Part shown: one piece after another, positions 4,606-59,760 of the stretch | Layout: each line of letters opens with the position of its first letter | Numbering within the stretch: position 1 is the stretch's first letter | The notes under the pieces: model-generated | Databases searched by the model: none | The model's input: the letters and a program-made list of their open reading frames with translations, nothing else | What the model was told of the DNA's origin: nothing | Source: Pseudomonadota bacterium | GTDB taxonomy: Bacteria; Desulfobacterota; Binatia; UBA1149 | Direction: 5' to 3' | Assembly: GCA_014382245.1 (NCBI GenBank) | Contig: JACNKC010000097.1 | Location: 1 to 64,000, forward strand | DNA length: 64,000 nucleotides | Translations under genes and position numbers: made by a program

Positions 4606-4958
4606 GCGGTCGAGGCGTCGTCGGTAGCTTCGTCGTCGGTAGCTTCATCGGCAGCCGCATCATCGCCACCACTGCTACCATCAGCCGGCTCATCCCCCGA
4701 CGCTTCGGCTGAATCCGAGGCTTTCGGCGAATCCGAGGCTTTCGGCGAATCTGCCTGTCCCAACCTGACTACGTTCTCGGCCTGGGGACCCTTGGGGCTC
4801 TCGGAGATTTCGAACTCAACCGGTTCGGCCTCCTCGAGCGAGCGAAAGCCGTCTCCGCCTATCGCGGAGAAGTGTACGAACACGTCAACGCCTCCATCCT
4901 GCTCGATGAAGCCGTAACCCTTAGCGTTGTTGAACCACTTTACCCGGCCTTGGGGCAT
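4602..4958 (-). CDS. Cold-shock protein (CspA family) with acidic repetitive C-terminal tail
   Basis: [36 protein letters not shown] motifs followed by ~50 aa [13 protein letters not shown]../[13 protein letters not shown] tail. Confidence 0.93.
4617..4646. repeat. 15-bp tandem duplication (gtcgtcggtagcttc x2) in csp tail
   Basis: Direct reading of sequence. Confidence 0.9.
4711..4746. repeat. 18-bp tandem duplication (gaatccgaggctttcggc x2) in csp tail
   Basis: Direct reading of sequence. Confidence 0.95.
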
Positions 4959-8053: not shown

Positions 8054-8644
8054 ATGCGCGCCCCGGTAGTCAGCCTGTTCCTGTTCGCCTTGCTGCTGCC
8101 GGCAGCGTTTCTGCCGGCAGCGTTTCTGCCGGCCTCCCTGGGCCAGGCCCATGCCGCGGCAGCTGCCCAGCTCGAAATTCTCAGCTTCGGCAGCGGCTCG
8201 AGCGAGATAAACGTGGTACTCGACGGCGACAAGCTCTCGTTGTTTGCCAACCAGGTATCGGCCGATCTCGTCATTCGGCACCTCCAGGCTGTTGGCGGGC
8301 CGACCTACAGCTCGCTTGAGCCCCTGACCAGGCCGATCAACCTGTCGCTGCACGGTGTCACCTGGGAGGCCATGCTGCGCAGGATGCTGGTGGGCTACAA
8401 CTGTTCGTTTCACTACAAGGGTTCGCGGGTGGATCACGTCAGGATACTGCACATGACCCCGACCCGGCCCTACAAGACCCCGCGCTTGTTGCAGAGCCGT
8501 GCCGAGTGGACCCGCCAGGAGCAGGACTCGTTGGAGGCGCGCGCGCGCGCCGTTGCCACCAGCGCCAGGTCGGGCGAGGGCGCCGGCCAGCCACCTGCGG
8601 GATCAGTGCCGCTGCCGTCCCGGCCGGCCACGGGCCAACACTGA
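8054..8644 (+). CDS. Exported STN-like (secretin/TonB short N-terminal) domain protein
   Basis: Signal peptide then VSADLVIRHLQAVGG..INLSLHGVTWEAMLRRMLVGYNCSFHYKG, an STN-like pattern. Confidence 0.6.
   Translation: MRAPVVSLFLFALLLPAAFLPAAFLPASLGQAHAAAAAQLEILSFGSGSSEINVVLDGDKLSLFANQVSADLVIRHLQAVGGPTYSSLEPLTRPINLSLHGVTWEAMLRRMLVGYNCSFHYKGSRVDHVRILHMTPTRPYKTPRLLQSRAEWTRQEQDSLEARARAVATSARSGEGAGQPPAGSVPLPSRPATGQH
8096..8132. repeat. 15-bp tandem repeat (ctgccggcagcgttt x2 plus partial third)
   Basis: Direct reading of sequence; lies in the signal-peptide coding region. Confidence 0.95.
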
Positions 8645-17108: not shown

Positions 17109-18206
17109 ATGGTGGACAAGTCTATAGACGGCGAAGTATCGGGCAAGCTGTTCCGGTTTCTCTCGGCCATGCACCCCTCGCTGTCGCGTGCCGAGCGGCA
17201 GAGCTTTGCCGAGTACGACGCAGATTCCTGGTATCCGTGGAACGAGGAGACCGCCAGTCGTTTTAACGAGTTGATGCGCAGCGCGCCCCGCGACAGCAGC
17301 TTCGCTCGCGGCTTTGCCTACGTGGCACAGAAGGCGATACCCGAGGGACGCTACCTGTCGGTGCCGGAGTTGCTTGAATACCTCGACCGGCTGCCGGCGG
17401 CCTTCAGGGGCGAGTACGGCAGCGGATTCGAGGCCAGGCTCGAAGAACCCTTCAAGGCCAGGATCAGCTACGCGGGGATGCCGGGCTTTGCCAACAGTTG
17501 CATAGCGGTGGCCGGCGAGCTCGCTCAACGCTTGCAGGCTTCGGGCGGCAAGGGAGTGCGGGTGCGCCACGTGGAAGGCTGCCGGCTGCAGGACGAAGAA
17601 CGCTGCAATTTCGAAGTCACGTGGAAGTCCGAGGCCGATCCCCGCGGCGTCGAACTGGTGGCGGCTTCTTCGCTGCTGGGCGAAGAAGCGCCGGACCTGC
17701 TCGTTCCTGAAACAGACAGGGATCTGCGCGAACCCGTGTCGGCCGAGAACTGGAACTTCAGCGACGAGGCTCTGCCGGGTGACAACGACGAAGCCTCCCT
17801 GGCTCAAGAAATAGCGCCGGCCCGCGAAATTAAGCCGCCGGCCGAACCGGTTCTTCCCCCGGTGCAGGAGTCCCTGCGGGAGCCCGCCGAGGCACAAGTC
17901 GCCGCGAGCACTGCCGGCGGACTGGCCGAAGCCGGACTGGCCGAAGCCGTGTTGTCCGGGAACGTGTCGGCGACATCGGGCGACGATCTCTTCGGCATGC
18001 TCAAGCAACGCCTGGAAGTTGCCGATCGCCAAGCGGCGCTCTACGAGCAGGCCCGCGGTGAGATCGATCTGCTGCGCGGCGAACTCAATCGTGCTGGTGA
18101 AGAGCACCGTCGCGCTCTCGATGAAGCCGAGCAGCGCATCAGCGAAACCCGCGTGCAACTGGCGGCGCTCAAGGACAACATTCGCAAGCTGGTGTCGGAC
18201 CACTGA
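17109..18206 (+). CDS. Uncharacterised protein: globular sensor-like N-domain (V4R/DUF2378-like), low-complexity linker, C-terminal coiled coil
   Basis: VRHVEGCRLQDEERCNFEVTW pattern, Pro/Ala-rich linker, LEVADRQAALYEQARGEIDLLRGELNRAGEEHRRALDEAEQ coiled coil; RBS-like ggagg 8 nt before ATG 17109. Confidence 0.45.
   Translation: MVDKSIDGEVSGKLFRFLSAMHPSLSRAERQSFAEYDADSWYPWNEETASRFNELMRSAPRDSSFARGFAYVAQKAIPEGRYLSVPELLEYLDRLPAAFRGEYGSGFEARLEEPFKARISYAGMPGFANSCIAVAGELAQRLQASGGKGVRVRHVEGCRLQDEERCNFEVTWKSEADPRGVELVAASSLLGEEAPDLLVPETDRDLREPVSAENWNFSDEALPGDNDEASLAQEIAPAREIKPPAEPVLPPVQESLREPAEAQVAASTAGGLAEAGLAEAVLSGNVSATSGDDLFGMLKQRLEVADRQAALYEQARGEIDLLRGELNRAGEEHRRALDEAEQRISETRVQLAALKDNIRKLVSDH
17919..17948. 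repeat. 15-bp perfect tandem duplication (ggactggccgaagcc x2)
   Basis: Direct reading of sequence. Confidence 0.95.
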
Positions 18207-20471: not shown

Positions 20472-21502
20472 GCGCGGGCGGCAGGGTCGACGGCCGCGGG
20501 CTCGACGGCCGCGGGCTCGACGGTTGCGTGCTGGTGGAGGCCCCGTGGTTGATGAGCCTTTCTGTTGTCGGCGACGACGCGGTTGAGTACCTGCAGGGCC
20601 GCCTGAGCTGCGACGTGGCGGGGCTGGCCCCTGGGCAGGGCGCCCACGCGCTGTTGCTCACGAGGCAGGGGCGCGTGCAGGAGCTGCTGGCGGTCTACCG
20701 TCGTGCCGATGACCTCTTGCTCGTTGTTGACCGCGGCAGGGCCGACTCGGTGATGGCCGCGCTCGAGGAATTCATCGTGGCCGACGACGTGGAGTTTGAG
20801 TCTTGCGAGCAGGCCGGGTCACTGTTGCTGACGGGCCAGGACGCTCCCGCCTTGCTGGCCGGTGCTGCGTCGGATTTTTCGGAGCGGGATTTGTCGGAGC
20901 TGAACCTTTCGGGCCTGGCTCTCAACCTGCGACGGCGCGCGGACCTCTGCGTGCCGTCCTTCGAGTTGCTGCCCGGTCCGGGCTCAGACCCTGCTCAGTT
21001 GAGCGCCGCTCTGGAAGAACTCGGGGCAAGCAAGGGCGAGCCGGCGTTGCTGGATCGCATGCGGATAGAAAGCGGTACGCCCGCGGTCGGGGTCGACGTG
21101 GACGAGCAGCGGATGGCCATCGAGGCCCGGCTGGAGTGGGCCATTCACTTTGCCAAGGGCTGCTACGTGGGCCAGGAAGTAATCGAGCGCAGCGTCAGCC
21201 GCGGGCGCGTCAACCATCTCCTGGGCCTGCTGCAGATTGACCCGGCCGGCGCCGCTGTCCACGCAGCCGAGCTGGTCGGGTTGCAGGTAGCCGGCGGCAG
21301 CCCTGCCGATGTTGTGACCAGCGTGTCGATGGGCGCGGGGGGAGACAGCGAAGCGGTCCTGGCGTTGGCCTACCTGCCCGCGGCCATGGCCGAGACCGGC
21401 AGCGTGGTCGAGCTGGAGAGAGACGGCGTTGTTCTTGCCCGCGCCACGGTAGTGGAGTGGCCCCGGCCCCACGTGCTGGCGGGCCGGCAATCGCCTGCTT
21501 GA
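20468..21502 (+). CDS. ygfZ: Folate-binding protein YgfZ / GcvT-like
   Basis: Signature KGCYVGQEVIERSVSRGRVN and N-terminal VVGDDAVEYLQGRLSCDV. Confidence 0.88.
   Translation: MSAGGRVDGRGLDGRGLDGCVLVEAPWLMSLSVVGDDAVEYLQGRLSCDVAGLAPGQGAHALLLTRQGRVQELLAVYRRADDLLLVVDRGRADSVMAALEEFIVADDVEFESCEQAGSLLLTGQDAPALLAGAASDFSERDLSELNLSGLALNLRRRADLCVPSFELLPGPGSDPAQLSAALEELGASKGEPALLDRMRIESGTPAVGVDVDEQRMAIEARLEWAIHFAKGCYVGQEVIERSVSRGRVNHLLGLLQIDPAGAAVHAAELVGLQVAGGSPADVVTSVSMGAGGDSEAVLALAYLPAAMAETGSVVELERDGVVLARATVVEWPRPHVLAGRQSPA
20489..20518. repeat. 15-bp perfect tandem duplication (gacggccgcgggctc x2 plus partial)
   Basis: Direct reading of sequence. Confidence 0.95.
20876..20920. repeat. Degenerate 15-bp tandem repeat x3 (FSERD-LSELN-LSGLA)
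   Basis: ttttcggagcgggat / ttgtcggagctgaac / ctttcgggcctggct. Confidence 0.65.
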
Positions 21503-33206: not shown

Positions 33207-33249
33207 GTGTCCGCCGGGCTAGTGTCCGCCGGGCTAGTGTCCGCCGGCT
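33207..33249. repeat. Intergenic 15-bp tandem repeat (gtgtccgccgggcta x2.9)
   Basis: Direct reading; lies between an aminotransferase stop and the next dehydrogenase start. Confidence 0.95.
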
Positions 33250-40359: not shown

Positions 40360-40714
40360 TGCGTCTTTTCCTCCTCTGGAAACGATCCGCCTGCCTAAGA
40401 CTGCAAAGCCCGGAGCAAAAACAGCTCCGTGTGATCACCCAGGGGCGGTGGCCACATGACTAGATTTCCCTGCAGCGGTCGTAAGGTTCCAGTTGCGTCG
40501 TTTATAGTAACTTGGCAGGCCGGTTGTCAAGGCCAAAAGCCGGGTCATTCTATTTTCGCGCTGTTTTTTACCCGGTTGGGGGGGTACCCGGTGATTTCTG
40601 TGTCCGTTCAGCAGCCTATTACGCGCCTGCGCGCTCAGCGGTACCGTGGTAGAATCGCGTTGCGGCCCAGAAATATCGCCCCCTCGATCGGGGGAGCAAC
40701 CCAACGGAACTCCA

Positions 40715-41743
40715 GTGAAACTGGTCATACAGATACCCTGCTACAACGAGGAGCAATGGCTGCCAGCCACCGTGGCCGAGCTGCCGCGGGCGTTGCGCGG
40801 TGTAGACGAGGTGGAGTTTCTCGTTGTAGACGACGGAAGCACTGATCGCACGGCCGATGTGGCCGCCGAGCTGGGTGTTGAGCACGTGGTCAGGGTGCCG
40901 GTAAACCAGGGCCTGGCGCGGGCTTTTTCGACCGGGCTCGACAAAGCGCTGCGGCTGGGCGCCGATATAATCGTTAACACCGACGCCGACAACCAGTATG
41001 ACGCCGCCTGCATACAGCAGCTGGTCGATCCTATTCTCAGGGGCGAGGCCGACATGGTGGTGGGCGACCGCGCGCCCTCGACCCTGGCCCATTTCTCGCC
41101 GATCAAGAAGCTGTTGCAGGCGATAGGGTCGGCAATAGTACGCGGCGTGTCGGGCACCAACGTACCCGACGTGACCAGCGGTTTTCGCGCGTTTTCGCGC
41201 GAAGCGGCGCTGCGCATGAACGTGGTTTCGGACTTCACCTATACCCTGGAGACCATAATACAGGCGGGCAAAAAGCAGCTATCGGTTGCCCACGTGGCCG
41301 TGGGGGTCAACGCCGACATGCGACCTTCACGGCTCTTTACGCGCACCTTTACCTACCTGACCAAGAGCCTGTCGACCATCGTGCGCATATACGCACTGTA
41401 CGAACCGCTGAGGTTTTTTTCGGCCATAGGCCTGGCCCTGCTCCTTGCGGGTTCGGCCCTGGGCGCACGCTTTCTCTACTTCTACCTCACCACGGGCGGC
41501 GAGGGGCACATTCAATCGCTGATACTGGTAGCGGTCCTGTTGCTGGCCGGTTTCCAGACCGTGCTCATAGGCATGGTGGCCGACCTGCTCGGTTCGAGCC
41601 GTCGCCTGCTAGAAGACACCCTGCTCAGGGTGCGCCGGCTCGAACTCGGCGAGACGGAGAATGGCCAACGGGAGAATGGCCAACGGGAGAATGGCCAACG
41701 AGAGAATGACCAACGCGAGAAAGAGCAGCGGGCGGGTAGATGA
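40715..41743 (+). CDS. GT2-family glycosyltransferase with C-terminal TM segments and pentapeptide-repeat tail
   Basis: IQIPCYNEEQWLPATVAELP..FLVVDDGSTDRTADVA..NTDADNQYD; two C-terminal TM; GTG start. Confidence 0.9.
   Translation: MKLVIQIPCYNEEQWLPATVAELPRALRGVDEVEFLVVDDGSTDRTADVAAELGVEHVVRVPVNQGLARAFSTGLDKALRLGADIIVNTDADNQYDAACIQQLVDPILRGEADMVVGDRAPSTLAHFSPIKKLLQAIGSAIVRGVSGTNVPDVTSGFRAFSREAALRMNVVSDFTYTLETIIQAGKKQLSVAHVAVGVNADMRPSRLFTRTFTYLTKSLSTIVRIYALYEPLRFFSAIGLALLLAGSALGARFLYFYLTTGGEGHIQSLILVAVLLLAGFQTVLIGMVADLLGSSRRLLEDTLLRVRRLELGETENGQRENGQRENGQRENDQREKEQRAGR
41657..41731. repeat. 15-bp tandem repeat, 5 units (gagaatggccaacgg), encoding ENGQR repeats
   Basis: Direct reading; 3 nearly perfect units and 2 degenerate. 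Confidence 0.97.
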
Positions 41744-44001
41744 GGGCTTGCCTCTTTGGCACCTACAATCGCCGTCACAGCGCCAATCGCATTTACGCGA
41801 GGGCCATAGCAGCGGCCGGCTTTGAGCTGGTCGAAATCCACGAGCCACTATGGGAGCGCACCCGCGACAAGGGCGCCGCGTACTTCGGGCCGCTTGGCCT
41901 GCTCAGGGGCCTGCTGGGGTGGCTCGCGGCTGCCGTTAAGCTGACCCGTCGTTGGTGGACAAGCGGCGGCACGCCGGTGGCCGTAGTGGGGTTCAACGGC
42001 CAGCTCGACGTGTTGCTGCTGCGCCTGGTGAGTCTGCGTCAAGGCCCGAGGGTGATTTTTGCGCCGCTGGTCTCGCTCACCGAGACCCTCGTTGACGACC
42101 GTGGTGTCTACCCAAGGGGCGGCATGGCGGCGCGCGCGCTGCGCTTGCTCGACAGGCTCAGCTGCCGGGTGGCCGACGTGGTGGTTGTCGACACCCAGGC
42201 CCACCGGCGCTATTTTGTCGACGTGCTGGGTGTGGCCGAAAAACGCGTGGTGGTCTGCTACCTGGGAGCCGACGCTGCGGTGTTCGGCGATGACGCTGAT
42301 TCCATTGTCACTGAGCCGCCCGACAAAGCCGAGCCGCCCGACGAAGCCGAGCAGCCCGACGAAGCTGCGCAGCCCGACGAAGCCGGGCGCTTGCGGGTGC
42401 TGTGGTTCGGCCAGTACCTGCCACTGCACGGCACGGATGTCATTGGGGGGGCGGTCGAGCAGCTGGCCGACCGCGACGACCTGTCCTTTCTGTTCGTGGG
42501 CACGGGCGAAGCACGGGCAGAGTTTGAGCAGAGGGTAAGGCAGAGTGGCGCGGTAGCCGAGTTCAAGGATTGGGTAGACTACGAACAGCTGCCCGCGCTC
42601 ATAGAAAAGGCCGACATCGTGCTGGGCGTGTTCGGCGACTCGGTGAAATCACGCATGGTTATACCCAACAAGGTCTACCAGGGGGCGGCCATGGGCCGTC
42701 CCGTGATAACGGCCGACTGTGAAGCCGTGCGCGAGGTGTTTACCGACGGTCGCGACCTGGTTCTGTGCGAAGCCGAGGCGGGTGCGCTTGCCGCGGCGAT
42801 AAGCTCGCTGGCGTCAACCGCGGGTCACCGTCGCAGCCTGGGTGAGGCGGCTGCCGAATTGATAACAGGGCGCTTCGGCGACCGGGAACTCGGCCGCTGC
42901 TGGGCCGGGCCACTTTCGGGCGAAGAAACAACAGCCGAGCAGACAGCCGTCGAAGGAACCGTCGCAGAAGGAACCGTCGCAGAAGGAACCGCCGTCGAAG
43001 AGCCCGACGTCATCGAGAGCACTGCGGACGACGAAGCACTGGTGGGCGTCGTCATACTCAATTTTAACAGCGCGCGGGCCACCCTGCGCTGCCTGCTGGC
43101 CGTGACCGGCAGCGATTACGGAAACCTGCGGGTCATGGTGGTCGACAACGCTTCTCAAGCCGCCGACCGACGCGAGCTTGAGGCCGGCATGGCCGGGCGC
43201 TTCGAGGCCCGGTTGTTACTCAACGACGAGAACCTCGGCTACGCGGGTGGCAACAACGCCGCGCTCAAGACGCTGTTCGGCGACGGTTGCCGCTACGTGC
43301 TCGTGCTCAACGGCGACACGCTGCCCACGCCCACGGCCATAAGTTCGCTGGTGGCTTGCGCCCGTCGAAATCCCCACTGCGGGCCGGTGGGCCCGAGGAT
43401 AGCGCGGGACTGGCCGGGCGCCCACAGCGCGTCGATAGGCGAGCGTTACTGGGCCACCGTGGCCTGGTTGCCACGCAGCCTGCTCAGGCCGCGACGACCG
43501 CGACAGACCAGCTACGAGGTCGGCGGTGTGCTGGGATGTGCCATGCTCATCAGCCGCGATCTTTACAACCGCGTAGGCGGCTTCGAGGAGGCTTACTTCG
43601 CGTACTACGAAGAAGTGGACTACTGCCTGCGCGCCCGGCGGGTAGGGATGCCACCGAGGGTGGAGCCCGGGGCCGAGATCGCGCATACCGGCTGGCGCGG
43701 CTTTGGCGGCGGCATGACGGGCCTGGCGGCCTATCTCAAGGCTCGCAACCTGTGGCAGCTGGGCTCGCGCCGGCTGGACCTGCTCGAGAAGCTGCTGTTC
43801 GTACCCGGCTACTTTGCCATGCTGAGCCTGAGCATGCTGGGCTACCTGTTCAGGGGCAGGATAAGCGTGCTGGTGGCCATGGGCAGGGGTGCCGCGGCAG
43901 GAATGGGCGGGGAAACCGGCCGCCCGCCGGATCATGTATTTGAATCGGGGGGCATTTCCCTGGTCGGCGGCGCGGAGCCACCGGGGGAAACCAGGCGGTG
44001 A
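41740..44001 (+). CDS. Fused GT4-type + GT2-type glycosyltransferase (753 aa)
   Basis: N-half GT-B-like (LWFGQYLPLHGTDVI.., VLGVFGDSVKSRMVIPNKVYQGAAMGRPVITADCEAVREVF); C-half GT2 (VVILNFNSARATLRCLLAV..LLNDENLGYAGGNNAALK..VLVLNGDTLPTPTAI). Confidence 0.9.
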   Translation: MRACLFGTYNRRHSANRIYARAIAAAGFELVEIHEPLWERTRDKGAAYFGPLGLLRGLLGWLAAAVKLTRRWWTSGGTPVAVVGFNGQLDVLLLRLVSLRQGPRVIFAPLVSLTETLVDDRGVYPRGGMAARALRLLDRLSCRVADVVVVDTQAHRRYFVDVLGVAEKRVVVCYLGADAAVFGDDADSIVTEPPDKAEPPDEAEQPDEAAQPDEAGRLRVLWFGQYLPLHGTDVIGGAVEQLADRDDLSFLFVGTGEARAEFEQRVRQSGAVAEFKDWVDYEQLPALIEKADIVLGVFGDSVKSRMVIPNKVYQGAAMGRPVITADCEAVREVFTDGRDLVLCEAEAGALAAAISSLASTAGHRRSLGEAAAELITGRFGDRELGRCWAGPLSGEETTAEQTAVEGTVAEGTVAEGTAVEEPDVIESTADDEALVGVVILNFNSARATLRCLLAVTGSDYGNLRVMVVDNASQAADRRELEAGMAGRFEARLLLNDENLGYAGGNNAALKTLFGDGCRYVLVLNGDTLPTPTAISSLVACARRNPHCGPVGPRIARDWPGAHSASIGERYWATVAWLPRSLLRPRRPRQTSYEVGGVLGCAMLISRDLYNRVGGFEEAYFAYYEEVDYCLRARRVGMPPRVEPGAEIAHTGWRGFGGGMTGLAAYLKARNLWQLGSRRLDLLEKLLFVPGYFAMLSLSMLGYLFRGRISVLVAMGRGAAAGMGGETGRPPDHVFESGGISLVGGAEPPGETRR
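42313..42384. repeat. 18-bp tandem repeat x4 (EPPDKA-EPPDEA-EQPDEA-AQPDEA)
   Basis: Direct reading of sequence. Confidence 0.92.
42922..42996. repeat. 15-bp tandem repeat ~5 units (EETTA-EQTAV-EGTVA-EGTVA-EGTAV)
   Basis: Direct reading; gaaggaaccgtcgca duplicated perfectly at 42952-42981. Confidence 0.92.
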
Positions 44002-45095
44002 ATGTAGCCCTGTCAGCTGTGGCGGGCACCCTGGGCGGCCCGGCCACTTACGCGATCGAGCTGGCCAGTGCCCTGGCAAAAGAGTTTCCCGCCGACGATT
44101 ACACCGTTTTTACCGACCAACCCGACGCCTTCGCTGGCCGTGTTGAGACTGTCAGGGTTCGCCTGCGCAGTGCCTGGGAGCAGCCGCTGTGGGATCACCT
44201 GTGGCTGCGCCGCGCCCTGCTCGGGCACCCGGCCGAGCTTTTTCACGGGACCAAGGGCGTGTTGCCGGGCCTGCTGGGGCGCCCGGGCGTGGTGACGGTG
44301 CACGACGTGGCCCACCTGGTCTATCCCGAGAGCTTCGCCCTGGCCCAGCGCCTGCACCTGGCCCTGGAGACCCCCCGCAGTATAAGCCTCGCCCAGGTGG
44401 TGCTCACCGATTCGCAGAGCACGGCCCGGGATCTTGCCAGCCACTACCCGGCCGTGAGCGACAAGGTGGAGGTGGTACCGCTGGGTGTACCCGCGGCCGG
44501 AGTGCGACCGGGCGACGACCAGATCGAGGCCTGGCGACGCGAGCAGGGCATAGGACCCCGGGTCATCGGCTACCTGGGCACGGTGCAACCGCGCAAGAAT
44601 CTCGACCTGCTGGTTGATGCTTTCAGCAGCCTGTCGGCCGGCAGTGACTTGCAGTTGCTGGTCGCCGGGCGATTGCGGCCGGGCTACCGGCCGGCGTTTC
44701 TCGACCGCGACCTGCCCGGGGTTCGCTACCTCGGGCCCCTGGACGACGAAGAGATTCCGCTGTTTCTCGGCAGCCTGCGCTGCATGGTTTCGCCATCTTC
44801 GTACGAGGGTTTCGGGCTCACCTTTCTCGAGGCCATGGCCGCCGGCTGCCCGGTGGTCGGCTTTGCCAACAGCTCCATACCCGAGGTGGTGGGAGAAGCG
44901 GGCCTGCTGGTCGAAAACGAAGACTCGGCGTCGCTGGCCGCGGCCATCGGCCGCCTGCTCGACGACGATGAGCTGGCCGAACAGCTGGCGAAGGCCGGCC
45001 TTGAGCGCGCCGCGAATTTTACCTGGTCGAACACCGCCCGTCTCACCCGCGCAGTCTACGCCCGGGCGCTGGCCGCTGGCCGGGGGCAGCAGTGA
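43998..45095 (+). CDS. GT4-family glycosyltransferase
   Basis: LGTVQPRKNLDLLVDAF, VSPSSYEGFGLTFLEAMAAGCPVVGFANSSIPEVVGEAGLLV; GTG start overlapping upstream stop. Confidence 0.93.
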   Translation: MNVALSAVAGTLGGPATYAIELASALAKEFPADDYTVFTDQPDAFAGRVETVRVRLRSAWEQPLWDHLWLRRALLGHPAELFHGTKGVLPGLLGRPGVVTVHDVAHLVYPESFALAQRLHLALETPRSISLAQVVLTDSQSTARDLASHYPAVSDKVEVVPLGVPAAGVRPGDDQIEAWRREQGIGPRVIGYLGTVQPRKNLDLLVDAFSSLSAGSDLQLLVAGRLRPGYRPAFLDRDLPGVRYLGPLDDEEIPLFLGSLRCMVSPSSYEGFGLTFLEAMAAGCPVVGFANSSIPEVVGEAGLLVENEDSASLAAAIGRLLDDDELAEQLAKAGLERAANFTWSNTARLTRAVYARALAAGRGQQ

Positions 45096-45991
45096 AAGTC
45101 ACCGCGGTAGTGCTCGACTGGAACGGACACCAGGACACGCTGGCCTGCCTGCGCAGCCTGCGCGAAGTACGCGGCCTGGACATCGTAGTGGTCGACAACG
45201 GCTCCAGCCCGCGGCTGGCGGAGGCCCGTGGCGACGAACTCAAGGGTGTGACCCTGCTGGAGAACGAGCAGAACCTGGGTTACGCGGGTGGCAACAACGT
45301 TGGACTGAAGCGCGCGCTGGCCGACGGGGCCGAGGCCGTGTGGGTGCTCAACAACGATACCGTGGTCGATCCCGAAGCGCTGGATCTCCTGCTGGCCTGC
45401 CTTGAGCGTCACCCGCGGGCAGCGGCCGTGGCGCCGGCGGTGCTTTCAGCCGACGACCCGAGACGCCTGTGGGTGGCCTGGGGCGAGGTCAACTGGTTGC
45501 AGAGCCTGGTGCGCCTGGTGGGGCAGGGACGCGAGTATGGCCCGCGCTGGCAGGGCGAGCGCGAGGTGCCGTGGCTGCCCGGTTGCTCGGTGCTGTTCAG
45601 GCGCGCGGCGTTGGAGGCGGTGGGCCTGTTCGACGAAAACTATTTTGCCTACCACGAAGACGTCGACTGGGCGGCGAGGGCGCGAGAGCTGGGCTGGAGC
45701 ATGCACTACAGCGGGCTGGCCACGGTCGTTCACCGCGGCAGCGCGAGCAGTGGCGGCTACTCGGGCTTCAAGCGCTACCTGAGCGCTCGCAACAGCGTTC
45801 TCTATGCGCGGCGCCACGGCAGTTTTCAGCAGCGGGTGCTGCTCGCGGCCGCCATAGTACTCACGCTGCCTTTTCAATACCTGCGCCGCCTGGCCACGGG
45901 CGAGCAGGGCGGGGTGTTGCTCAAACTACGCGGCTGGCTGGACGGCCTCGCTGGCCGTCCCATCCCCTTTGAGCAGCTCCACCTCCGCTGA
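45092..45991 (+). CDS. GT2-family (rhamnosyltransferase-like) glycosyltransferase
   Basis: VVLDWNGHQDTLACLRSL..NEQNLGYAGGNNVGLKRALADGAEAVWVLNNDTVVDPEAL..FAYHEDVDWAARARELG. Confidence 0.93.
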   Translation: MKVTAVVLDWNGHQDTLACLRSLREVRGLDIVVVDNGSSPRLAEARGDELKGVTLLENEQNLGYAGGNNVGLKRALADGAEAVWVLNNDTVVDPEALDLLLACLERHPRAAAVAPAVLSADDPRRLWVAWGEVNWLQSLVRLVGQGREYGPRWQGEREVPWLPGCSVLFRRAALEAVGLFDENYFAYHEDVDWAARARELGWSMHYSGLATVVHRGSASSGGYSGFKRYLSARNSVLYARRHGSFQQRVLLAAAIVLTLPFQYLRRLATGEQGGVLLKLRGWLDGLAGRPIPFEQLHLR

Positions 45992-46008
45992 CCGAAAAGG
46001 GAAGACGT

Positions 46009-46051
46009 ACCTTTTCCCGGTTTCAGACCACGTCTCAAACCGGGAAAAGGT
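46009..46051. repeat. 19-bp inverted repeat with 5-nt loop (one arm mismatch)
   Basis: ACCTTTTCCCGGTTTCAGA-ccacg-TCTCAAACCGGGAAAAGGT. Confidence 0.92.
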
Positions 46052-46196
46052 GGGAGGTCTATCCGCAGCGGCAGGGGAGCCGATTGGATGGCCGTGCCAC
46101 GGCGGCCATGTTTCCCCGGTAAAAATCCCTGCGGGTATGTTCTGCATGCGCTAGGCTGTATGGGATAGTCAGGTTCTGCGGCCGGGCGCTAGCGAC

Positions 46197-51432: not shown

Positions 51433-52899
51433 TTGCAACGAAGTGAACAGGTAACACGCGGCGCGTGGATGGGCCTGTTGGTGCAGGCGGCGGACAAGAT
51501 CCTGCCGGTTGTCATCGTCCTTTACCTGGCCCGCGCCATCGACCCCGAGTCTTTCGGCGTCTACAGCTTCCTCGTCGCTTACCTCGCCCTGTTCCAGGTT
51601 GCGGTTGAGTACAGTCTCGACGCGGTGCTGGTCAGGGTCTTGAGCCAGCAGTCCGAGCCCTCGCCCGCTACCTTGCACGCGGGGCTGGGACTGAAGTTGT
51701 TAATGTCGTTGGCGGCGGCCGCTGTCGCGACCTTGTGCGTGGGCCCCTTGTCGGGGGGCCGCGTGCCTCTGGATCTTGCCGCCTGCGCTTCGCTGGGCCT
51801 GCTCACGGGGCTGGGTGGCGCCTACCGTTCCTGGTTTCGCTCCAATCTCGAGATACCGCCGGTGCTGGCCCTGGCCTCCGCGCGGGCCTTGCTACTGGCG
51901 GTGGGCGTGGTGGTGGTCGTGCAGGCCGGCGCGGGCCTTCGTGCTGTTTTCCTCGTCATGGCCGCGGCCAATCTCGTGGTGTTTGCCGGCGTGGCGCTGG
52001 CCGTGTCACGCGAGCTCAAGCCACGTTTTGTTTTCGACCGCGAGCAGTGGGGTCTTCTGCTTCGCGGTGCGGTACCACTGTTTTTTAACGGCTTTGCCAT
52101 CATGCTCGGTCTCAAGGCAGGACAGGTTTTGCTGCTGTCGATGCGCGGGCCGGTGGAAACCGGACTGCTGGGCGCGGCGTCACGCGTGGCCGAGGCCTTC
52201 AGCCTGTTGCCCGAGGCCCTGATGATCACCGTGTATCCGCTGATGGCCTCGCTTCATATAAAGCGCGACGGCATGGGCGGGCAGCCGGCAGACACGCGGT
52301 TGGCAGATACGCGGCTGGCAGAGACAGTAGAAAAATCTACCCGCTACCTGCTGCTGGCCATCGCCGTGCCGGTAACCGTGTGCATGGTGGCCGGTGATCT
52401 TATCATGGGGCTGTTGTTCGGCGCGGGTTATGCCGAGGCCGGCCCGGCGCTGTCGCTGCTGGCGGTGATGGCACTGCTCAGCGCCACGGGTACCGTGGTT
52501 ACCTACCTGCTGGTGTCGGTGCACGCCGAGAAAACGCTGTACCGCAACACGATGGTCTTCGCATTGCTCAACGTCGTGCTGTCGTACTTTTTGATCACGC
52601 GGGCGGGTTACATGGGTGCTGCCGTTGCCATGATAGCCAGCAGCGCCATGTCGCAGGTCAGTCTTGCGCTGCTGCCCCCCACGCGCGCTTATACCCGCCT
52701 GTGCCTCGCGGCGGCCTTGCGGCCTGCACTCGCGGTGGCCTGCGGTGTCGCGGCCGGCCTGCTGGCGGGATACGGCAGCCTGGCGGCGGTGGCCTGGTCG
52801 GTCGGGGCTTGCCTGCTGGCGCTGCTCGCTCTCAGGGTATTGACGGCTGAGGATATCGCCTTCATACGTAGCAGCCTGGGTTGGGGCCAGAAATCGTGA
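51433..52899 (+). CDS. Wzx-like polysaccharide/oligosaccharide flippase (MOP superfamily)
   Basis: ~12-14 TM; YLARAIDPESFGVYSFLVAYLALFQVAVEYSLDAVLVR; TTG start. Confidence 0.85.
   Translation: MQRSEQVTRGAWMGLLVQAADKILPVVIVLYLARAIDPESFGVYSFLVAYLALFQVAVEYSLDAVLVRVLSQQSEPSPATLHAGLGLKLLMSLAAAAVATLCVGPLSGGRVPLDLAACASLGLLTGLGGAYRSWFRSNLEIPPVLALASARALLLAVGVVVVVQAGAGLRAVFLVMAAANLVVFAGVALAVSRELKPRFVFDREQWGLLLRGAVPLFFNGFAIMLGLKAGQVLLLSMRGPVETGLLGAASRVAEAFSLLPEALMITVYPLMASLHIKRDGMGGQPADTRLADTRLAETVEKSTRYLLLAIAVPVTVCMVAGDLIMGLLFGAGYAEAGPALSLLAVMALLSATGTVVTYLLVSVHAEKTLYRNTMVFALLNVVLSYFLITRAGYMGAAVAMIASSAMSQVSLALLPPTRAYTRLCLAAALRPALAVACGVAAGLLAGYGSLAAVAWSVGACLLALLALRVLTAEDIAFIRSSLGWGQKS
52288..52332. repeat. 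15-bp tandem repeat x3 (ADTRL-ADTRL-AETVE) in flippase loop
   Basis: gcagacacgcggttg / gcagatacgcggctg / gcagagacagtagaa. Confidence 0.85.
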
Positions 52900-56694: not shown

Positions 56695-59600
56695 TCAGTC
56701 CAGGCGCCGCCGCAGCGTGGCCAGGGCCCGCCCCGCCATTTCGCTCACGTCGGTGTCCGAGTCCAGTTGGGCAAGCGCCAGGTGATCTGCGTGGCCGGCG
56801 TTTCCGGTTCGCCCCAGCGCCCAGGCGGCGGCCAGTCTGATGTCGGGATCCGGGTGACTCGACATCGGCACCAGTTCGGTTGCTGAGCGGGGGCCACCGT
56901 AAACCGAGGCCAGCCAGATCGCGCTCTCCAAGCGGGGTCCCTGGCCAGCGTGAATCATGTCGGCGAGCAATTGGTCAGCTTCGAGAGTTTTTTTCAGCAG
57001 GTCTTCGGCCAGTCGCAGCACCATCCTGTCGTCAAACAGCATCAGGTTATAAGCCGTGTTCAGGATATCGGATTTTTCCGCGCAGCCGTAGCGCACCATC
57101 GTGCGCAGCGCGAGCAGGCGCAGGGCCAGGTCCGCGTTTTCTGATATAGCCGCGAGCGATGGCCTGCAAACGATCTTCCGGCCTGGCGACGAGTGCTCCA
57201 GTGCCTCTGCTCCCAGCGTGACAGCGTAGTATCGCAGGGGGCGACCGGCCGAGGGGTCGTCCAGCCATTGGGTTGCGCGTGTCAATTGATACGGGCTGAG
57301 ATCCTGCTGTCCGCTGTCGTTTTTGGTTTGCAGGCGGCCGAACCAGAACGAACCGTTCACGTGGCGCGAAGCTGCCATGAACAATCCTCGCTGTGCCGCC
57401 AGCGCCGTGGCCATATCCGGTGAGTCCACGAGGCTCAGCAGATCCGGCGCAGAGTCGGCGGCCACGCCTCCCCCTATGCTGCGCAGCGCGAGAATGTTCT
57501 CCCGGGGCGACAACAAACCCCCGGCTACCGCGGCGACAAGATTGCGCGCGACTGTTTCGTCGCGGGCGTGCCTGTAGGCCCACACCACCTGGTTTCTCAC
57601 GTCCAGGTCGGGGTCGCCGAGCAGCTTGCTCAGCGGCGGGTAGTCGCTACCCAGGTGAAAACCCTCAAGCTGTTTCACCGCCTCCAGTCGCACCGCGGCG
57701 TCGGGGTCAGCCAGGCTACCCCTCAGTTCCTGGTCGAGTTGGTAGGGCAGGGCGGCTTCTATGCTGCTGCGCGGCAGGTCGGGGCCATCTCCCGTCGGCC
57801 CCAGGGTCTTGTGGGCAAGCACAACGTAGCGGCCGAAACGGGCGTAAGCGCGGTAGTTGCTCTCTATGTAGTGCTGCAATTGGAAGTAGTAGAGGGCCGC
57901 CTGCGAGAAGAACAATGGGTGCCAGTGGTAGACGACGACGAATCTCGGTGGCGCGGCGTCGAGGTCAGAAATGACCTCGGCCTCTACCTCGCGACCTGGC
58001 CAGCCGGGAAAGAAATAGCCATGGCGGGTTGTATTCGGGCGACCGGCCAGGAACGAGACCACGTCGAGTGACGGAAAAGTGAAAATGCGTTCGTCTTCGG
58101 CGGTATTGTTTTTTACAAACTTGACCAGGGCCGACAGGTCGCCGTAGGTGGCGGCTGCGCCCACGTTGTTCCATATGGGTGCGCGCTCTGGAACCAGCCG
58201 CACGGCCTGCGGTCGCGAGGGCAGGCCGCCGTCCAGGTCAACGATAGCGCCCAGCGAGTGGCCGGCCCTTATAGCCCCGATCGCAAACAGCGGCGCAAAA
58301 ATCAGCGCGGTTATGGTCGCCTCGGGCAGCCGGCTGCCGCGGCCTTGCTCCCAGCGCCTGGCCAGGGCCGCCAGCAATACCACCCCGAGCAGCAGCGACA
58401 CCGGGGCCGAAGTAACCCAGTGCATGAAGTCGGTTCTCGGGTAGATCTGCAGGTAGAGAAAGACGGCGCCGGTGATAAGCACGGTGGCGTTGAGCGAGGG
58501 CGCCCGGCAGTCGTCGTCGGTGCCTATGCTGCGGGCCCACACCCACAAGCCCAGCCAGTGGGCCAGGATAACGGCCACAAAGGCCGCCGGCTCCACCACC
58601 GACATGACCGCGTTGTAGAAACCCTCGGGCATTGGTCGCCCGGCCAGCAACAGGCCACCGGCAACACTTGCCAGCGCGGCGGCCAGCAGCAGGAACACGT
58701 CGGTAGGCATGACCCGGCGTGCAACCCGGCGTGGCAACGCACGCGCTAGTATCACCAGGCCCAGGCCTGCCACGGCACCCAGCAGAACCGGGGGGTGCGA
58801 GATGAAGTAGAACTTTTCGAAGTCAGCCCCGAAGAACAAGGCCCGTTCGAGAAAACGCTGCGGGCCCAGCACGCGGTAGTAGTAAATCATCCACGGCGCG
58901 TTGACGGCCAGGAAAGACAGCGCGAGGGTGGCCGCGCAGACCACCAGCGACGGCATTTTTCCCTCGGGCGCGGGCACCACTGCGGCCCTCCACGCTACCA
59001 GCAGCGAGGCCACGGCAGCCGGTGCGAGCAGTATCCAGAACTCGCGCAACCCGGCCCTGCCGCCGAAGACAACCGCCAGCCCCAGCAGTATGGCCAGCCA
59101 CCAGCCCCACCACAGCAGGCGGTTGAGCCTGGCCTTCCATCCAGCGGCATCGGGTGCGCCCTGCATGGGCAGTACGGCCAGCGCAACCAGCGACGCGGCC
59201 GCCAGTTGAAACAGGCCCACGTTGGGCTTGAAGGCAAAGTTAATACCCGCCAGCACGCCCGTCAGCAGCAGCCAGCGCAGGCCCTTGCCCTCGCCGAACT
59301 TGAGCAGGGCGAGCATACCCCCCAGCCACAGCGGCACGTTGTACCACACCGGGTAGGGGATGTTGGAGGAGGCGAACTGGCCCGGGTGAATGGGTACCGA
59401 GGCGAGGTAGAGCAGGGGCGCGGCCAGCGACAGCCAGCGTCGACGGGTGAGCTGCCAGCCCAGCAGGTAAAGCAGCGCCATGCTGACGGCCAGCGTGGTG
59501 GCCAACACCCAGCGCCCGGCCAGCAGGGAGTGGCCCGAGGCTTTCATGATGGCGCCGTGCAGCAGGTAAACGCCGGGCGTGTAGCCAATGTGGAAGTCCT

Positions 59601-59760
59601 GGTAGAGGCGGTCGCCGGCGGCAAAGCGCGACATCTGCGATACCAACGCGCCCTCGTCGGCAAAGTTGATGCCGTAGTCTACGAAGGATCCGAAGTACAA
59701 CAGGCCGAGCGCGAAGCTCAGTATGGCCATGCGGTATGGACGGCTGGTCATGGTTGTCAT
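56695..59760 (-). CDS. GT39-like multi-pass membrane protein with long C-terminal HEAT-repeat region (1021 aa)
   Basis: NFADEGALVSQMSRFAAGDRLYQDFHIGYTPGVYLLHG.. membrane half; LRGSLADPDAAVRLEAVKQLEGF..LLGDPDLDVRNQVVWAYRHARDE..SSHPDPDIRLAAAWALGRTG HEAT repeats. Confidence 0.8.
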   Translation of the reverse strand: MTTMTSRPYRMAILSFALGLLYFGSFVDYGINFADEGALVSQMSRFAAGDRLYQDFHIGYTPGVYLLHGAIMKASGHSLLAGRWVLATTLAVSMALLYLLGWQLTRRRWLSLAAPLLYLASVPIHPGQFASSNIPYPVWYNVPLWLGGMLALLKFGEGKGLRWLLLTGVLAGINFAFKPNVGLFQLAAASLVALAVLPMQGAPDAAGWKARLNRLLWWGWWLAILLGLAVVFGGRAGLREFWILLAPAAVASLLVAWRAAVVPAPEGKMPSLVVCAATLALSFLAVNAPWMIYYYRVLGPQRFLERALFFGADFEKFYFISHPPVLLGAVAGLGLVILARALPRRVARRVMPTDVFLLLAAALASVAGGLLLAGRPMPEGFYNAVMSVVEPAAFVAVILAHWLGLWVWARSIGTDDDCRAPSLNATVLITGAVFLYLQIYPRTDFMHWVTSAPVSLLLGVVLLAALARRWEQGRGSRLPEATITALIFAPLFAIGAIRAGHSLGAIVDLDGGLPSRPQAVRLVPERAPIWNNVGAAATYGDLSALVKFVKNNTAEDERIFTFPSLDVVSFLAGRPNTTRHGYFFPGWPGREVEAEVISDLDAAPPRFVVVYHWHPLFFSQAALYYFQLQHYIESNYRAYARFGRYVVLAHKTLGPTGDGPDLPRSSIEAALPYQLDQELRGSLADPDAAVRLEAVKQLEGFHLGSDYPPLSKLLGDPDLDVRNQVVWAYRHARDETVARNLVAAVAGGLLSPRENILALRSIGGGVAADSAPDLLSLVDSPDMATALAAQRGLFMAASRHVNGSFWFGRLQTKNDSGQQDLSPYQLTRATQWLDDPSAGRPLRYYAVTLGAEALEHSSPGRKIVCRPSLAAISENADLALRLLALRTMVRYGCAEKSDILNTAYNLMLFDDRMVLRLAEDLLKKTLEADQLLADMIHAGQGPRLESAIWLASVYGGPRSATELVPMSSHPDPDIRLAAAWALGRTGNAGHADHLALAQLDSDTDVSEMAGRALATLRRRLD

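Follow-up and report, generated by a model that had tools for sequence, protein, structure and literature searches.

A fused GT4-like and GT2 glycosyltransferase of one Binatota order and the short tandem duplications in its linkers

Results

The fused gene lies in a glycosyltransferase operon

The window analyzed here is the whole 64,000-nucleotide stretch G000:C28:1-64000, from a draft genome (G000) of 2.94 Mb. An open reading frame on its forward strand, at positions 41740–44001, begins with ATG, contains no internal stop codons and encodes a single protein of 753 amino acids, in which a GT4-like enzyme is joined to a GT2 enzyme. The gene overlaps each of its neighbors by 4 bp. The preceding gene (40646–41743, forward strand) encodes a GT2 that Pfam and sequence comparison place as a distant relative of AglJ and the polyprenyl-phosphate sugar synthases. 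Following the fusion are a GT4 gene conserved beside it (43998–45095, forward strand) and a further GT2 gene (45092–45991, forward strand), both identified from Pfam and locus comparison. The operon comprises this polyprenyl-phosphate sugar synthase-like GT2, the additional GT4 and GT2, a flippase and membrane glycosyltransferase-like proteins, and it is best read as a surface-glycan operon within which the fusion is a bifunctional glycosyltransferase. Elsewhere in the window, positions 56695–59760 encode a protein of 1021 aa whose C terminus carries HEAT repeats and whose hydrophobic N-terminal part resembles a putative membrane glycosyltransferase.

Pfam, an AlphaFold2 model and Foldseek agree on the identity of the two enzymes, and uphold the initial annotation of the gene as a GT-B/GT4-like plus GT2 fusion. 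The N-terminal Rossmann half of the GT4-like enzyme spans residues 1–188 (41740–42303) and was assigned from the model together with a weak match to Glyco_trans_4_4 over residues 41–174, at 28.6 bits slightly under the cut-off of 29.7. The C-terminal Rossmann half comprises residues 217–395 (42388–42924) and matches both Glyco_trans_1_4 (PF13692, residues 219–358, 59.5 bits, cut-off 27) and PF00534 (37.4 bits, cut-off 26.4). The GT2 enzyme occupies residues 434–736 (43039–43947), with Glycos_transf_2 (PF00535) matched over residues 437–612 at 56.8 bits against a cut-off of 23.3. All three segments are on the forward strand. In the model, built from 39 sequences (mean pLDDT 87.5, pTM 0.77), both enzymes are well folded, a GT-B enzyme with two Rossmann halves that ends near residue 395 being followed by a GT-A enzyme from residue 434. 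Foldseek matches the first to MshA, PglA and BshA, and the second to GlfT2. Values of pLDDT below 50 are confined to residues 190–196, 204–214, 405–430 and 743–753, corresponding to two repeat arrays, described below, and the C-terminal tail.

The EX7E pair is common but not universal in GT4 enzymes, and hence was not used as a defining feature. In our alignment its two positions are occupied by M306 and Q314 in the GT4 half, the second being Glu in most relatives of the order; because the classical pair is missing, we refer to the first enzyme as GT4-like. The GT2 half has a DXD-type metal site in the form of an NxD variant, N524 and D526, which is accepted as such a site in GT2 enzymes (PMC11231755), and D526 is invariant across the 13 fused relatives. 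One fused relative (L013, G012:C984) has a GT2 half that looks degenerate, with VVTAGT instead of VVDNGS and three residues gone at the usual AEVAHxG site, and this second module is possibly decaying.

The fusion is present throughout the order

Both modules lie in one uninterrupted reading frame in all 13 genomes read from UBA1149, an order within the Binatota (PMC8262859). These independent assemblies rule out an assembly join, raised in the initial annotation, as the origin of the fusion. The annotation also suggested looking for relatives with the two halves encoded separately; such relatives exist in other Binatia orders, but not among the 13 genomes of this one. Among the other Binatia genomes covered, from families f8, f9 and f11, the GT4 and GT2 halves are separate genes, which adjoin wherever both fall within the stretch examined. 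Split relatives (L007, L011, L017 and L018) have homologous halves in the same order as two adjacent genes rather than one, and no arrays comparable to those below were seen in the parts of them that were read. Fused and split arrangements alike have the AglJ-like GT2 before them and the GT4 after them in the loci that were compared, of which the split examples come from two f9 genomes. The simplest account of this distribution would be a single event, in which two neighboring genes fused in the ancestor of the order.

Klebsiella O7 ORF6, which has two GT2 modules (PMC11231755), and the chondroitin synthase K4CP (PDB 2z86) likewise combine two transferase modules in a single polypeptide encoded in a glycan gene cluster. 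In both, each module has its own active site, as is predicted here from sequence and model. In contrast to these proteins, the present fusion combines a GT-B (GT4-like) with a GT-A (GT2) enzyme and carries repeat arrays in both linkers. Taken alone, the fusion is unremarkable, a bifunctional-type glycosyltransferase of a familiar sort.

In-frame arrays lengthen both linkers

Array 1 (42313–42385, forward strand) lies at the GT-B hinge, between residues 188 and 217, and consists of 4.1 copies of an 18-bp unit with 90% matches. It encodes EPPDKA-EPPDEA-EQPDEA-AQPDEA, so that of the initially annotated “EPPDKA x4” the period and the four hexapeptides stand, and the identity of the units does not. 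Array 2 (42952–42991, forward strand) lies in the GT4–GT2 linker, between about residue 397 and residue 433, and consists, as annotated, of EGTVA-type 15-bp units, present in 2.7 copies with 100% matches and encoding EGTVA-EGTVA-EGTA. AlphaFold2 predicts both regions to be disordered, which places the arrays outside the folded cores and at the domain boundaries first proposed for them. A third array, overlooked in the initial annotation, is at the C terminus of the preceding GT2, where a 15-bp unit encoding ENGQR is present in 4.4 copies (41656–41721, forward strand).

Two congeners, G001 and G002, have proteins 95–96% identical to those of G000. Array 1, seen only in this genus, has three units in both congeners and four here; its origin therefore lies within the genus or earlier, and it has since grown. 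The EGTVA array was found in neither congener, and with copies identical at every base it is, by this measure, recent. The ENGQR array has about two copies in G002 and is replaced by a run of N in G001. Judged from these distributions, both linker arrays are younger than the fusion; in-frame tandem duplication produced them after it, array 1 within the genus and array 2 in G000 only.

Across the order, the alignment shows linkers of differing length at both the hinge and the interdomain position, mostly repeat free, with a long unrelated Gly- and Ala-rich insertion at the hinge position in G011. Both linkers, predicted to be disordered, tolerate length change, as the relatives show, and on this alignment the repeats lengthen linkers already in existence rather than creating them. 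The idea that repeat expansion builds acidic flexible linkers therefore needs modification: array 1 is acidic, but what was taken as construction is extension.

The genomes compared are drafts, and the run of N in G001 falls exactly at the ENGQR array, as might be expected if the differences in copy number were artefacts of metagenome assembly. The tracts in the congeners, however, carry substitutions and partial copies instead of exact collapsed copies, the units of array 1 differ from each other, the fusion is present in 13 genomes, and whole arrays of 40–73 bp generally fit within single reads. We consider an artefactual origin highly improbable.

Tandem duplications of 15 bp are in excess in the G000 lineage

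The arrays are no special feature of this enzyme, as similar arrays occur at many sites in the rest of the genome. We counted exact tandem duplications, merging equal-period arrays within 2 kb, in 636 kb of G000 (approximately a fifth of the genome) and in 782 kb of G001 and G002 combined. The G000 sample contains 38 independent loci, 19 of which have a period of 15 bp, versus 2 of 25 loci in the congeners (binomial p = 2e-5 for 19 versus 2). Other periods are similarly frequent, at 19 and 23 loci, respectively. Randomizing 337 kb of G000 with a first-order Markov model yielded no exact tandem duplications, against 25 in the real sequence, and the arrays therefore exceed chance. Low-complexity proteins were considered as a source; pentapeptide-repeat and lysine-/alanine-rich proteins explain some arrays, and the 19 loci are those that remain after merging.

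Gapped alignments agree with these counts: 15 bp had been gained 10 times in G000 and 4 times in G001, gains of 9, 12 or 18 bp being few, and in the comparison with G002 the numbers were 6 and 1, respectively. When the TRF threshold is relaxed, some arrays of 15 and 18 bp appear in the congeners as well and the difference in share shrinks (p = 0.08), but G000 still has three to four times as many per Mb. Thus, in the 636-kb sample, the excess of 15-bp tandem duplications is specific to the G000 lineage. More arrays of period 15 or 18 bp are found in other genes of the window (4616–4751, 8096–8133, 17918–17949, 20487–20523, 33207–33247 and 52287–52322), and for several of them the congeners have a lower copy number or imperfect copies.

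Slippage between short direct repeats is the likely route of expansion, because several sites in G001 and G002 carry one copy or 1.5 copies of the unit, with such a repeat spaced 15 bp apart. Inspection by eye revealed no sequence shared among the 15-bp units. The events resemble the ABA to ABABA insertions that short direct repeats mediate in yeast strains deleted for rad27, which have a flap-processing defect and in one example duplicated a 16-bp unit through an 8-bp repeat (PMC5677150); unlike in rad27, one length, 15 bp, dominates. They also resemble bacterial coding-region minisatellites (VNTRs), as in-frame arrays of short units that differ in copy number between relatives, but differ from them in the lineage-specific excess of one period across many unrelated units. 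In the open-licence literature we found no description of a bacterial 15-bp bias.

Several candidate causes were considered. MutS and XseA are each present in 5 of 5 genomes tested, which excludes loss of mismatch repair and of exonuclease VII. RecJ (TIGR00644) scored above the cut-off in 2 of the 13 genomes of the order and in none of the three in this genus; as it was not found in the congeners either, its loss alone cannot explain how G000 differs from them.

A separate element of G000 was also observed. This palindromic, MITE-like intergenic sequence has GGGAAGACGTACCTTTTC ends and often occurs as inverted pairs (for example, window 45999–46057 and L030 6271–6358). It has 27 matches across G000 and none in G001, G002, G003 or G005, and the window copy has strong predicted folding (z = −5.6).

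Most arrays lie outside folded domains

Ten arrays, all in proteins with Pfam domains, were checked for position, and nine of them fall in linkers or close to termini, outside the domains. These are both fusion arrays and those in the tail of the preceding GT2, a flippase, the N termini of a GCV_T protein and a zinc dehydrogenase, an enolase-superfamily protein, the C terminus of a metallo-β-lactamase-fold protein, and DNA polymerase I. The remaining array is within the catalytic domain of a Glu/Gln-tRNA synthetase. In a Jag-like protein, the array lies beyond the N-terminal domain. A plain reading of these positions is that selection would remove insertions inside folded domains.

The DNA polymerase I array (L050 18906–20000, G000:C3) is composed of 15-bp AGDS[A/V] units, amounts to about 20 residues and sits at the joint of the 5′ nuclease and Klenow parts; it is absent from both congeners (L166 and L167). 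Because this joint array is lineage specific and RecJ was not found in the genus, we considered that the lineage may have a mutator-like 15-bp tandem-duplication bias, perhaps through altered flap processing in replication, with in-frame linkers lengthened proteome-wide as a by-product, those of the fused glycosyltransferase included. We regard this proposal as speculative and rather improbable.

Contingency loci are classically found among surface-glycan genes, and the congeners differ in copy number, as they would if slippage in the arrays regulated the enzyme by phase variation. Such a locus would change frame with copy number, but the 15- and 18-bp units here preserve it. Copy numbers are also low, and housekeeping genes, including those for DNA polymerase I and a tRNA synthetase, carry such arrays too. 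We therefore give phase variation very little credence.

Discussion

Considered together, these data are consistent with an order-specific bifunctional glycosyltransferase whose permissive linkers record a lineage-specific process of short duplication, an explanation to which we assign a probability of roughly 0.7. The repeats are better explained by a lineage-wide mutational process striking permissive linkers than by design specific to this enzyme. A contrary view is that the linkers were selected for length, the arrays being adaptations that tune the spacing of the domains or the motion of the hinge. Both arrays lie exactly at domain boundaries in the model, G011 has independently acquired a long insertion at the same GT-B hinge, and array 1 has been retained and enlarged within the genus. 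However, similar arrays occur in many unrelated G000 genes, and most relatives have shorter, repeat-free linkers, so adaptive tuning seems unlikely, although it retains some weight.

Within the surface-glycan operon, the fusion probably transfers two sugars in succession onto a lipid-linked glycan. It predicts the coupling, within a single polypeptide, of two steps in the synthesis of a Binatota surface glycan, and it is a marker of one order. Of greater importance than the fusion are the repeats, as evidence of a process: with three close genomes that contain both precursors and expanded products, the origin of disordered linkers by short tandem duplication can be traced event by event. If the 15-bp bias is genome-wide, it would point to a testable difference in replication or repair between sister species.
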